Of a stretch of DNA of 64,000 bases, positions 18,142-22,464 are shown piece after piece. The translations under genes and the position numbers were made by a program. Numbering within the stretch: position 1 is the first letter of the stretch; the number at the start of each line of letters is the position of its first letter. Under the pieces are notes generated by a model. It saw only the letters and a list, made by a program, of their open reading frames with translations. It searched no databases and had not been told where the DNA came from. Source of the DNA: Elusimicrobium sp. (GTDB lineage: Bacteria; Elusimicrobiota; Elusimicrobia; Elusimicrobiales; Elusimicrobiaceae); contig SUVG01000006.1 in NCBI GenBank assembly GCA_015062115.1, positions 1 through 64,000 on the forward strand, written 5' to 3'.

Positions 18142-18216
18142 AAAAGTATCGTTCTGTAAGGGCGAAATATTTTAGGGGTTGTGATTTGTCAAAATAATCA
18201 TCAAAAAGGAGAAAAA

Positions 18217-18783
18217 ATGAGTGGATTGTTAATTGTCGGGATATTAGTGGCGGTCTTTGCCGTGTATGTTGTGACGACCTATAACGGGTTTGTTGTGTTG
18301 CGTGTACGTGTGCAAGAGGCGTGGAGCGATATTGAAGTGCAAATGAAACGCCGCTATGACCTGATTCCTAACTTAGTGGAAACGGTGAAAGGGTACGCCA
18401 AACACGAAAGCGGTACCTTGGAAAAAGTAATCCAAGCCCGCAATATGGCCATGGCGATTCCGAAAGGAAATTTGAAAGAAATTGCCGCTTCCGAAACGGT
18501 TCTTTCCGGCGCGCTTAAATCTATTTTTGCCTTGTCGGAAAACTATCCGGAATTAAAAGCCAACACCAACTTTTTGGAACTTCAACGCGAACTGCGCGAT
18601 ACGGAAGACAAATTACAGGCCGCCCGTCGTTTTTACAACGGAAATGTAATGTCTTACAATACCAAAATTGAACTCTTCCCCAGCAACATTGTGGCCTCTC
18701 TTTTCCACTTTGAAAAGAAAGAGTTCTTTGAATTGGACGATTCGGAACAGGCTGCCCGCCAAGCCGTTAAAGTGCAATTTTAA
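18217..18783 (+). CDS. lemA: LemA family membrane protein
   Basis: The 188-residue protein has one N-terminal membrane helix, then the LemA signature: YNGFVVLRVRVQEAWSDIEVQMKRRYDLIPNLVETVKGYAKHE, followed by a helical bundle and the YNTKIELFPSNIVASLFHF stretch. LemA proteins are exported helical-bundle proteins of uncertain function, very often encoded beside M48 (HtpX) proteases, as here. AAAAAGGAG precedes the ATG. It is the first gene of a four-gene operon with three HtpX paralogues. Confidence 0.94.
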   Translation: MSGLLIVGILVAVFAVYVVTTYNGFVVLRVRVQEAWSDIEVQMKRRYDLIPNLVETVKGYAKHESGTLEKVIQARNMAMAIPKGNLKEIAASETVLSGALKSIFALSENYPELKANTNFLELQRELRDTEDKLQAARRFYNGNVMSYNTKIELFPSNIVASLFHFEKKEFFELDDSEQAARQAVKVQF

Positions 18784-18794
18784 GAGGGCCTTTT

Positions 18795-19800
18795 ATGGCT
18801 ACGACTTACGAACATATTAGTCAAAACAAGTGGCGCACTGCGCTGCTTGTTTTGTTTTTTCCCGTTTCTTTGGCTATTTTGGCTTGGATAACGCTGTATT
18901 TGCTATTTGTTTGGAGGAGTTAATGCGTCTTCCGCGCAAACCGCACAAACGGTAGATATGATGGCGGCCTCAGCACCGATAACGGCCAGTGTAAGCACTT
19001 CGTTGGCTTATGTGTTGCCTTTTGTGTGGTTGGGGGCCATGATATGGTTGTATGTTTCGTGGTACGTTGGGGCACCGATTGTGCTTTCCGGTACGGGAGC
19101 GAAGGAAATCAGCCGTGCTGACAATCCTGAAATCTACCGTTTGGTGGAAAACCTCTGTATTACCAGAGGCTTGCCCGTTCCTAAAATCTATATCATGGAA
19201 GATCCCTCGCTTAACGCCTTTGCTACCGGCCGTGACCCGGACCATGCCATTATTGCGCTGACAACCGGCATTATTCAAAAGTTGGATAGGGCAGAATTGG
19301 AAGGCGTTATTGCGCATGAACTGGCCCATGTGGAAAACCGCGATATCCGCTTGATGCTTTTGGTTGTGGCGGGTATTTCCTTTTTTACACTATTGGCGGA
19401 AATTTGCTTTCGTATGGCGGCTTCTTCCAGCAGACGAAGCGGAAAGGATAAGGGGAATAATGCGGTGTTTTTCTTGGTTATAGGTATCATGCTGACGATT
19501 TACGGTTACATTGTGGCCCCCTTGATTCGTTTGGCGGTTTCCCGCACACGCGAGTATCAAGCCGATGCCAGCGCGGCCCTTATGACGCGTAATCCGGGCG
19601 CATTGGCCTCCGCTTTGCGTAAAATTTCGGCAGACCCTCGCGTGGAAGCATTGGATAACCGCGAAACGGTGGCCGCTATGTGTATTGCAAACCCGTTAGG
19701 GTCGGCGCGGTTTTTTTCCTTAATAAGCGGGCTTTGGGCCACTCACCCTCCTATTGAAGCGCGTATTGCCGCTCTGAAAGAAATGGACGGAAGAATTTAA
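18795..19800 (+). CDS. htpX: HtpX-like M48 metalloprotease with an N-terminal frameshift
   Basis: The conserved start is at 18795 (AGGGCC upstream): it encodes about 42 residues including MATTYEHISQNKWR and the first membrane helix, and meets TAA at 18921. The rest of the protein lies in the +1 frame, open from 18892 to 19800. There it has the zinc motif HELAH (about 19315), the third-ligand segment SRTREYQAD and two more membrane helices. Both downstream paralogues have this N-terminal helix fused in frame. A GGAGGAG sequence sits directly before the frame-0 stop. Alternatives: programmed +1 frameshift, a true mutation, a sequencing error, or a shorter protein starting at 18907 (TTG) or 18958 (ATG). 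HtpX proteases act in membrane-protein quality control. Confidence 0.75.
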
Positions 19801-19805
19801 CTGTT

Positions 19806-20864
19806 ATGTACACGGCTTATGACTATGCGGCTTCTAACTCCCGCCGTATGTTTTTGCTGGCGACGGTGTTTGTGCTCTTTTCGTTAGCCGTTAGTTGGGG
19901 GGTGGGGTATGGCATTGGATTAGCTCATACGGCTTCCCAGAAGGAAAATAATTTTTGGGGCCGTCTGTCCAAAACAGTTGCCGCTAAAATCTGTAATACT
20001 ATTTTCCCGGACACTCACGAAATCATCATAGAAGAACCGCTTTTTATCACGGATGAAATGAAGGAAGTTGCGCCTGCCTTTGCTTGGCGGAGTATGCTTC
20101 TTGGGTTTATTTTCGCCTGTTTGTGGGTCTTGGGCGGTTACAGGTATGGCGAGTGTTTGACTTTAAGTGCGGCTCATGCCGTACGCTTGCAAGAAAAAGA
20201 ACATTTAGACCTTTACCGCCGGGTTACTACTATCTGTAAGACAGCCGGCCTGCCTCCCCCAAAAATCTATCTGGTGTTGGACGATTCCCTGAACGCATTT
20301 ACCGCCGGGGTAGGCAAAGAAAATATCGCCTTGGCGGTAACAAGCGGTTTGCTGGAAAAATTAAGCGGGGCGGAGTTGGAGGCAGTGCTGGCCCAGCAGG
20401 TTGCCCATATTAAACTGGGCAATACCAAATTGTGGCTTGCCGGCTTAACAACGGCTTTATTTTTAAGTTTTTTGGCAGAGACTTGCTTTGCTTCCGCTAT
20501 TCTTCCCAAGAGAGGGGTAATAGGTAGTATCTTCTTTTTATTGGTAGGAGTGGGCTGTTGGGTGTTGGGAGCATTTGTGGCACCGCTGATGCGGTTTGCT
20601 GTTTCCAGGCAGGCTGCTTTTTGGGCCGACTCTCAGGGGGTCTTGATTAACCGTAACGCCGAGGCTTTTATCAGTGCTTTGGAAAAAATGCGGCAAGATA
20701 GCCGCGTGGAGTTATTAGATTTGCATCCCAGTTTGGCGGGGCTTTGCGTGTTAAATCCGCGCGAAAAAAGTACGCTAATTATGGAAATTTCAGGCTTAAA
20801 TGCAACGCATCCTTCTGTGGAAAAACGCATTTTAGCACTTAAGGAAATGGACGGAAGAATTTAA
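19806..20864 (+). CDS. HtpX paralogue lacking the zinc-binding residues (pseudoprotease)
   Basis: The 352-residue protein aligns along its length with the HtpX genes on either side: N-terminal helix after MYTAYDYAASNSRR, the LDDSLNAFTAG block, two central helices and the C-terminal ATHPSVEKRILALKEMDGRI. The catalytic HExxH is replaced by QQVAH (LAQQVAHIKLGN), removing the first His ligand and the general-base Glu. The third ligand Glu is also gone (SRQAAFWAD instead of REYxAD). It therefore should not hydrolyse peptides. It may act as a regulatory partner of the flanking HtpX proteins. It is 5 bp after the upstream gene and 4 bp before the next one. The insert at residues 40-80 is longer than in the first paralogue. 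Confidence 0.88.
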   Translation: MYTAYDYAASNSRRMFLLATVFVLFSLAVSWGVGYGIGLAHTASQKENNFWGRLSKTVAAKICNTIFPDTHEIIIEEPLFITDEMKEVAPAFAWRSMLLGFIFACLWVLGGYRYGECLTLSAAHAVRLQEKEHLDLYRRVTTICKTAGLPPPKIYLVLDDSLNAFTAGVGKENIALAVTSGLLEKLSGAELEAVLAQQVAHIKLGNTKLWLAGLTTALFLSFLAETCFASAILPKRGVIGSIFFLLVGVGCWVLGAFVAPLMRFAVSRQAAFWADSQGVLINRNAEAFISALEKMRQDSRVELLDLHPSLAGLCVLNPREKSTLIMEISGLNATHPSVEKRILALKEMDGRI

Positions 20865-20868
20865 CACT

Positions 20869-21897
20869 ATGCTTGCTTACGAATATATTAAAAAAAATAA
20901 ACGCCGCAGTTTAATTTTAGCGGCTATGTTTCCTGTTTCTTTTACGTTATTTGCCTTTTTGGTAATTATGTTTTTTCATTCGGCAGGAACGGTTTTTTAT
21001 TATTTGGATATATCCCGAGAAATCGTGTGGAAAGAAATTTTGCAATCTGCTTTTGTAGCCGCGCATGAGTGGTGTAAGATAGTACTTCCTATTTGTTTTG
21101 TTTTGTCTGCTTTTTGGGCGCGTATTGCCATAAAAGACGGGGGAAGTGTAGTGCTTAAGTATATTCCCGGTATCCGCCCTATTTTTAAGTTGGATCATTT
21201 TGATGCCTGTACGGCATTGGAAAATTTATGCATCACGGCCGGAATGCCCCTGCCTGATTTATACGAATTAAACGATGACTCGTTAAATGCTTTTTCCGTA
21301 GGGGTTTGCCCGGAACACTCGGCCATTATTCTTTCCAAAGGGATTTTGGAAAAGTTGGATCGTCCCCAACTGGAAGGAGTTTTGGCCCACGAATTGGTGC
21401 ATATTCGTAATTACGATACGCGCGTGATGGCAGTGCTGATTACCTGTTTGGCCTTCTTTACCTTTGCGGGAGAAATGTTTGTTTACGGAACGGAAAAAGA
21501 AAATTTAACCGGAGATCCCAAAATAGACAATACAGTTTTCCGTATGCCGCCTTTTTTGTTGCCGGTAGGCCTTGCTTTAATGGCGTACGGTTATTTTGTA
21601 GCCCCGATGATTCGGTTGGCTTTATCCCGCGAACGGGAGGCTTTGGCTGATGCCGAGGCGGTTTTGCTTACGCGCAACCCGCAGGGGCTTGCCAAAGCCT
21701 TGTGGCGCATCAGCGAAGATAGCCGTTTGGAAACGCTGGATCGTTTGAATCTGGTGGGGGCAATGTGTATTGAAAATCCCCATGCAAAACCTACTTTTTT
21801 TGAGCGCCTTAGCGGTATCGGTAAAGCACACCCTCCGGTGGGGGAGCGTATCCATGCGCTAAACGATATGGACAGTTTATTTCTGCAAACCAAATAA
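20869..21897 (+). CDS. HtpX-like M48 metalloprotease
   Basis: The 342-residue paralogue has an intact zinc site: HELVH (LAHELVHIRNYDTR) and the third ligand in SREREALAD. It shares LNDDSLNAFSVG and the C-terminal AHPPVGERIHALNDMD with its neighbours, plus an N-terminal helix after MLAYEYIKKNKRR and a second helix near residue 70. It is expected to be an inner-membrane zinc protease. Last gene of the lemA-htpX operon; a strong bidirectional terminator follows. Confidence 0.9.
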   Translation: MLAYEYIKKNKRRSLILAAMFPVSFTLFAFLVIMFFHSAGTVFYYLDISREIVWKEILQSAFVAAHEWCKIVLPICFVLSAFWARIAIKDGGSVVLKYIPGIRPIFKLDHFDACTALENLCITAGMPLPDLYELNDDSLNAFSVGVCPEHSAIILSKGILEKLDRPQLEGVLAHELVHIRNYDTRVMAVLITCLAFFTFAGEMFVYGTEKENLTGDPKIDNTVFRMPPFLLPVGLALMAYGYFVAPMIRLALSREREALADAEAVLLTRNPQGLAKALWRISEDSRLETLDRLNLVGAMCIENPHAKPTFFERLSGIGKAHPPVGERIHALNDMDSLFLQTK

Positions 21898-21926
21898 AAA
21901 CTCCCCGGCTTAAGCGGGGAGTTTTT
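21897..21926. terminator. bidirectional terminator between htpX3 and lemA2
   Basis: Stem CTCCCCG/CGGGGAG with a GCTTAAG-type loop, A5 on the left and T5 on the right. The stop codon of the minus-strand lemA paralogue lies inside the hairpin. Confidence 0.88.
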
Positions 21927-22464
21927 CATTTTTGTCTTCTTTCAGGCTGGAATCGAAATCGAAATATTCGTAAGGTTCCAATTCAAACATTTTGGCAATT
22001 AGATTAAGCGGGATAATAGAAGTAATGGTGTTAAAATCTCTCGCCGCGCTGTTGTATTTGCGTTTAGAGTTTTGAACCTTGCGTTCTGCCTGGATAATAC
22101 TTTCCTGTAACTTGATAAAGTGTTCGTCTTCCTTCATTTCGGGGTGTTTCATGGCCGCGGTAAAGACCTTTTTGAACTTTTGGGTAATCTCATTTTCGCA
22201 AACCACCCGTTCCTGCAGAGAGCGGGCTTCGCGGCAGGCTTCCTTCATGTGGCTCAGTTCGTAGATAAAAGAGCGTTCCAGTTCTTCAAATGCGGCGGCG
22301 GAAAGAGATAGGCTGGGGATAAGTTCCGCGCGGTTTTTCATGTTATTATCCAGTTGTTGCCAAGCCGTTTTGGCGGCTTGGTTTAAGGACATAAATTTTA
22401 AGTAGGCTAACATCAACAAAACCACTAACATACACATTGCGCCGAAGATAAACCAAATAATCAT
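21910..22464 (-). CDS. second LemA-family protein
   Basis: The 184-residue protein has an N-terminal membrane helix and a LemA-like bundle: LNQAAKTAWQQLDNNMKNRAELIPSL corresponds to the EAW/RYDLIPNL motif, and the C-terminal YNSAARDFNTITSIIPLNLIAKMFELE corresponds to YNxxIxxFPxNxxA. It is more diverged than the plus-strand LemA. It converges on the lemA-htpX operon and shares its terminator. GGGGAGG lies upstream of the ATG. Function unknown beyond the family link with M48 proteases. Confidence 0.85.
   Translation of the reverse strand: MIIWFIFGAMCMLVVLLMLAYLKFMSLNQAAKTAWQQLDNNMKNRAELIPSLSLSAAAFEELERSFIYELSHMKEACREARSLQERVVCENEITQKFKKVFTAAMKHPEMKEDEHFIKLQESIIQAERKVQNSKRKYNSAARDFNTITSIIPLNLIAKMFELEPYEYFDFDSSLKEDKNEKLPA

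Follow-up and report, generated by a model that had tools for sequence, protein, structure and literature searches.

A probable retained pseudoprotease of the HtpX type beside lemA in Elusimicrobium, and recurrent active-site loss in accessory HtpX copies of the genus

The window, by which we mean the whole 64,000-nucleotide stretch of Elusimicrobium sp. DNA analysed here (contig SUVG01000006.1), carries three htpX-like genes, X1, X2 and X3, lying head to tail behind lemA1 and followed by a convergent lemA2 (Table 1). An earlier note on this DNA had described X2 as tightly coupled between two HtpX genes, and this is what we find: 5 bases separate it from the stop of X1 and 4 bases from the ATG of X3. 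The lemA1-X1 neighbourhood recurs at loci across the genus, and type IV pilin-like genes are found near the htpX cluster. X1, X2 and X3 are the only M48 matches in the genome, which spans 1.44 Mb on 8 contigs. A plasmid search returned no match.

Table 1. Positions of the genes and motifs of the lemA-htpX cluster in the window
Feature	Position	Strand	Remarks
lemA1 (LemA family)	18181..18783	+	Directly upstream of X1
X1, N-terminal 42 codons with first transmembrane helix	18795..18923	+	ATG at 18795, stop at 18921-18923; other frame than the catalytic part
X1, HtpX catalytic part, HELAH and SRTREYQAD intact	18907..19800	+	Open frame 18892-19800
X2, HtpX-type M48 paralogue of 352 aa, predicted to be catalytically dead	19806..20864	+	ORF, M48 profile, AlphaFold2, structural matches
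QQVAH in the place of HExxH (X2 residues 197-201)	20394..20408	+	First zinc His and catalytic Glu gone, second His retained
SRQAAFWAD in the place of SRxRExxAD (X2)	20604..20630	+	Third zinc ligand Glu replaced by Ala271 (20616-20618)
X3, full-length HtpX paralogue, HELVH and SREREALAD intact	20869..21897	+	
lemA2, second LemA-family gene	21910..22464	-	Convergent with the htpX cluster

In the assembled sequence, the reading frame of X1 is interrupted downstream of the first transmembrane helix, somewhere from about 18892 to 18920, and the sequence at the break point, CTATTTGTTTGGAGGAG, is compatible with a duplication of TTTG. Elsewhere in the genus the frame of X1 is unbroken in the copies examined, apart from that of G001, which has an N at the break point; in the window, either a genuine mutation or an error of assembly could account for the break. 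Programmed frameshifting was considered and rejected, since the other copies are continuous (with G001 interrupted by its N) and no slippery site is evident. The earlier note had credited one of the flanking HtpX genes with an intact zinc site. This stands for X3, the only full-length copy of the window with such a site, but the zinc site of X1 is intact as well, although its frame is broken.

The frame of X2 is open throughout, and the replacements already read in it by the earlier note, QQVAH for HExxH and Ala for the third ligand Glu, were borne out by the ORF and the alignment. Three of the four catalytic or ligand positions are thereby replaced. H197, E198 and E271 are present without exception (100%) in the 87 active HtpX copies that the genus has, and because these copies align across the columns concerned the active-site change is not a product of chance or of a misread frame. 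Two further invariant residues beside the zinc helix, Asp206 and Met210, are also changed in X2; the second His of HExxH, the LNAF motif, the HP motif and the hydrophobic segments for membrane insertion are retained. With the first His, the catalytic Glu and the third Glu gone, zinc-dependent cleavage by X2 is, as judged from its residues, very unlikely.

Preservation of the overall fold, also claimed beforehand, is well supported. X2 matches the Pfam Peptidase_M48 profile at residues 132-348 (73.1 bits, cut-off 20.3), and its best NCBIfam models are HtpX, with a score of 136.8 bits that lies below the equivalog cut-off of 355, a threshold also not reached by the active X1 (243.9) and X3 (175.9). 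AlphaFold2 gave a confident M48 model (pLDDT 87.5, pTM 0.84), and the best PDB matches of this model are the M48 enzymes Ste24p/ZMPSTE24, BepA and the HtpX domain 3CQB. The top structural match was 4il3 (Z 13.3, rmsd 10.2 over 234 residues), and the model was also matched with 6sar (Z 12.6, rmsd 3.5 over 149 residues) and 3cqb (Z 10.7, rmsd 3.2 over 98 residues). At the level of single residues, X2 keeps 45 of the 68 sites conserved in the genus, compared with 53-61 in its active orthologues, so that some loosening of constraint is likely; two dead X3 copies of other species, discussed below, keep 60 and 62. Changes at conserved sites showed no significant clustering in the zinc-helix segments (Fisher p = 0.13).

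X2 is found in 6 of the 66 genomes of the genus, each time just downstream of X1, and the six copies form one clade with a support of 100/100. All five orthologues keep HExxH (HEAAH in three of them, HEVAH and HETAH in one each) together with the third Glu and, therefore, the loss in X2 is limited to the window lineage. The earlier note had proposed to look for the same loss in several species as a mark of a selected pseudoenzyme. For X2 it does not occur; a loss common to several species and accompanied by purifying selection is found in another paralogue of the same genus, the X3 of G065 and G057. Searches of the genus and the family, with one genome per species, brought up no nearer strain of the window's species that carries X2. 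The species order differs between the X1 tree and the X2 tree, so that transfer of X2 between species or its patchy loss may also have occurred. In the active X2 orthologues (P0006-P0010), the Arg of SRxRE, kept in 93% of the active HtpX copies of the genus, is gone in all cases and is replaced by Cys or Ala. The activity of X2 may already have been altered by the time the window lineage lost its active site.

The dN/dS estimate suggested by the earlier note was obtained with a codon branch model. For the branch leading to X2 of the window, omega was 0.163 (profile about 0.07-0.33) against a background of 0.125, a value for which synonymous sites are near saturation in X2 comparisons and which, with a single post-loss sequence, mixes evolution before and after the loss. 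A two-ratio model for this branch brought no improvement over a one-ratio model (2dlnL 0.4), and omega = 1 was rejected (2dlnL 18.8). The X2/X1 distance ratios of pairs that include the window (1.9-2.6) fall within the range for the remaining pairs that span the X2 split (1.7-3.3) and, therefore, the rate of X2 is not raised relative to X1. Under neutral drift of any length, the joint probability of finding no stop in 352 codons together with changes at 7 of 32 invariant sites is at most about 1%, with indels left uncounted. Purely neutral decay of X2 thus appears to fit poorly, while a short recent neutral phase would be compatible with the one post-loss sequence. Intact orthologues combined with relaxed selection in this lineage only had been named as the observation that would speak against a selected pseudoenzyme: the orthologues are indeed intact, but the branch omega gives no sign of relaxed selection. 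The view of X2 as dead but preserved is supported by active-site loss, low omega, the improbability of neutral decay and the predicted M48 fold, all of them seen in one post-loss sequence.

We regard X2, with moderate confidence, as a retained pseudoprotease. It could also be a recently inactivated duplicate heading for loss, its frame preserved so far by the recency of the inactivation or by the polar effect that a stop would have on the tightly spaced X3. We consider this unlikely, although it has several observations on its side: all X2 orthologues are active, the presence of the gene in so few genomes of the genus marks it as dispensable, further conserved sites are eroded, and the frame break in the adjoining X1 may mean that the cluster is decaying. 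Polarity, however, would keep the frame and not the amino acids; moreover, the rejection of omega = 1 over the branch, a rate without excess relative to X1 and the roughly 1% probability, indels uncounted, of an open frame with the observed conserved-site changes under neutrality all speak against such decay. It is far less probable that X2 keeps an enzymatic or metal-dependent activity via other residues, as the retained second His, LNAF motif and HP motif might suggest, given that the first His, the catalytic Glu and the third Glu are gone, that Asp206 and Met210 are changed too and that no substitute for a ligand was seen in the alignment. Sequencing or assembly errors, for which the 8 contigs of the assembly and the frame break in X1 could be cited, scarcely deserve consideration, since at least three separated codons and further conserved sites have changed, all in frame and by clean codon changes, and the QQ change recurs in another paralogue in other genomes of the genus.

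At least three independent active-site losses were observed in accessory HtpX copies of the genus. The X3 of G065 and that of G057 have QQLAH and a third Glu replaced by Gln, common to both species, and represent a loss independent of that in X2. These two genes (L050:9610-10731, L065:3182-4381) are located away from the lemA-htpX locus, directly upstream of the same 880-residue gene. Both species inherited the dead X3, so their terminal branches are entirely post-loss; omega after the loss is 0.11, and fixing omega at 1 costs about 100 log units. In the pairwise comparison of G065 and G057, omega is 0.095 for the dead X3 and 0.061 for X1. A third independent loss is seen in the X3 of G023, with HELVR, a third Glu replaced by Gln and HPP changed to YPS, in a gene split over two contig ends (L057:1-665, minus strand, and L078:2-409, plus strand). 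Altogether, ligand loss affects 4 of 24 accessory copies and none of 68 X1 copies (Fisher p = 0.004, in a test that ignores shared descent).

Gene conversion between X2 and the dead X3 was considered as the source of the common QQ and rejected: the codons and their surroundings differ, and independent change is the simpler explanation. A pattern search over 341 genomes from the phylum, which is blind to other losses such as HELVR, found the QQ form in three, all members of this genus, and the HE form in 146. A named genome collection yielded only distant HtpX matches, and the motif picked up was HExxH in all 80 loci, with patterns that favoured intact motifs or H/Q variants and do not amount to a census.

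Two other observations concern the htpX content of the genus. A separate htpX expansion occurs in another group of species (L045, L046, L047, L048 and L049), in which the same locus holds two or three htpX genes of the X1 type, all with intact zinc sites, plus an additional, diverged LemA-like gene. Four genomes (G005, G006, G025 and G056), three of them more than 90% complete, are without an HtpX match at E <= 0.001, which indicates that some species may manage even without X1.

Returning to X2 as a retained pseudoprotease, we hypothesize that the gene arose by duplication beside lemA-htpX and that its ancestor was an active zinc protease, since all five orthologues still carry the ligands. 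The window lineage would then have lost zinc binding and catalysis and kept the transmembrane helices and the M48 fold. The present protein would have a function other than cleavage; most likely it would bind substrates or partners (X3, X1 or LemA) within the membrane and so tune or aid the active HtpX copies, as inactive subunits do in other metallopeptidase families. By this analogy, X2 would probably belong to a membrane module of LemA and HtpX, as a subunit that binds substrates or partners. The regulatory or scaffolding role put forward in the earlier note is a plausible hypothesis.

X2 resembles HtpX, the M48B membrane zinc metallopeptidase, in its fold, in the arrangement of its transmembrane segments, in the majority of the conserved motifs and in the proximity of lemA; it differs in being without the zinc His, the catalytic Glu and the third zinc ligand and is not, by these defining residues, a functional HtpX. 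Inactive subunits are established in the M16B family, in MPP alpha and in bacterial two-gene relatives (PMC11266112). Like these, X2 is an inactive homologue that adjoins active homologues and may act as a non-catalytic subunit (PMC11266112). M16, however, is an unrelated family with the inverted motif HxxEH and a soluble clamshell. FtsHi proteins (PMC11266112) and iRhoms (PMC6451368) are membrane proteases without catalysis that are kept as binding or regulatory proteins. X2 is likewise a membrane protease in which catalysis was lost and the protein retained, whereas those belong to the M41 and rhomboid serine families of eukaryotes, with ancient conserved losses, and the loss in X2 is that of one lineage. 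Its nearest counterpart in kind is the dead X3 of G065 and G057, from the same genus, with the same HE to QQ change, loss of the third Glu and purifying selection; yet that is another paralogue, lost independently and relocated from lemA-htpX. A 2024 review of inactive metallopeptidases (PMC11266112) has no M48 or HtpX entry, and a literature-library search combining HtpX and pseudoprotease found no paper.

The recurrent catalytic loss in accessory HtpX copies, with strong constraint in one clade, is a more interesting result than X2 alone and suggests that a non-cutting HtpX can be useful. We tentatively raise the possibility that the genus repeatedly makes accessory HtpX copies beside lemA zinc-free and keeps the dead copies as LemA/HtpX subunits, in an active/inactive M48 pair like MPP alpha/beta. 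Since sister species carry the same paralogue in active and in dead form, the two can be compared directly. Pseudoproteases are known in several families, and the losses in accessory HtpX offer a natural system for the roles of HtpX besides cutting; recurrent dead HtpX also bears on the purpose of LemA, a neighbour of largely unknown function.
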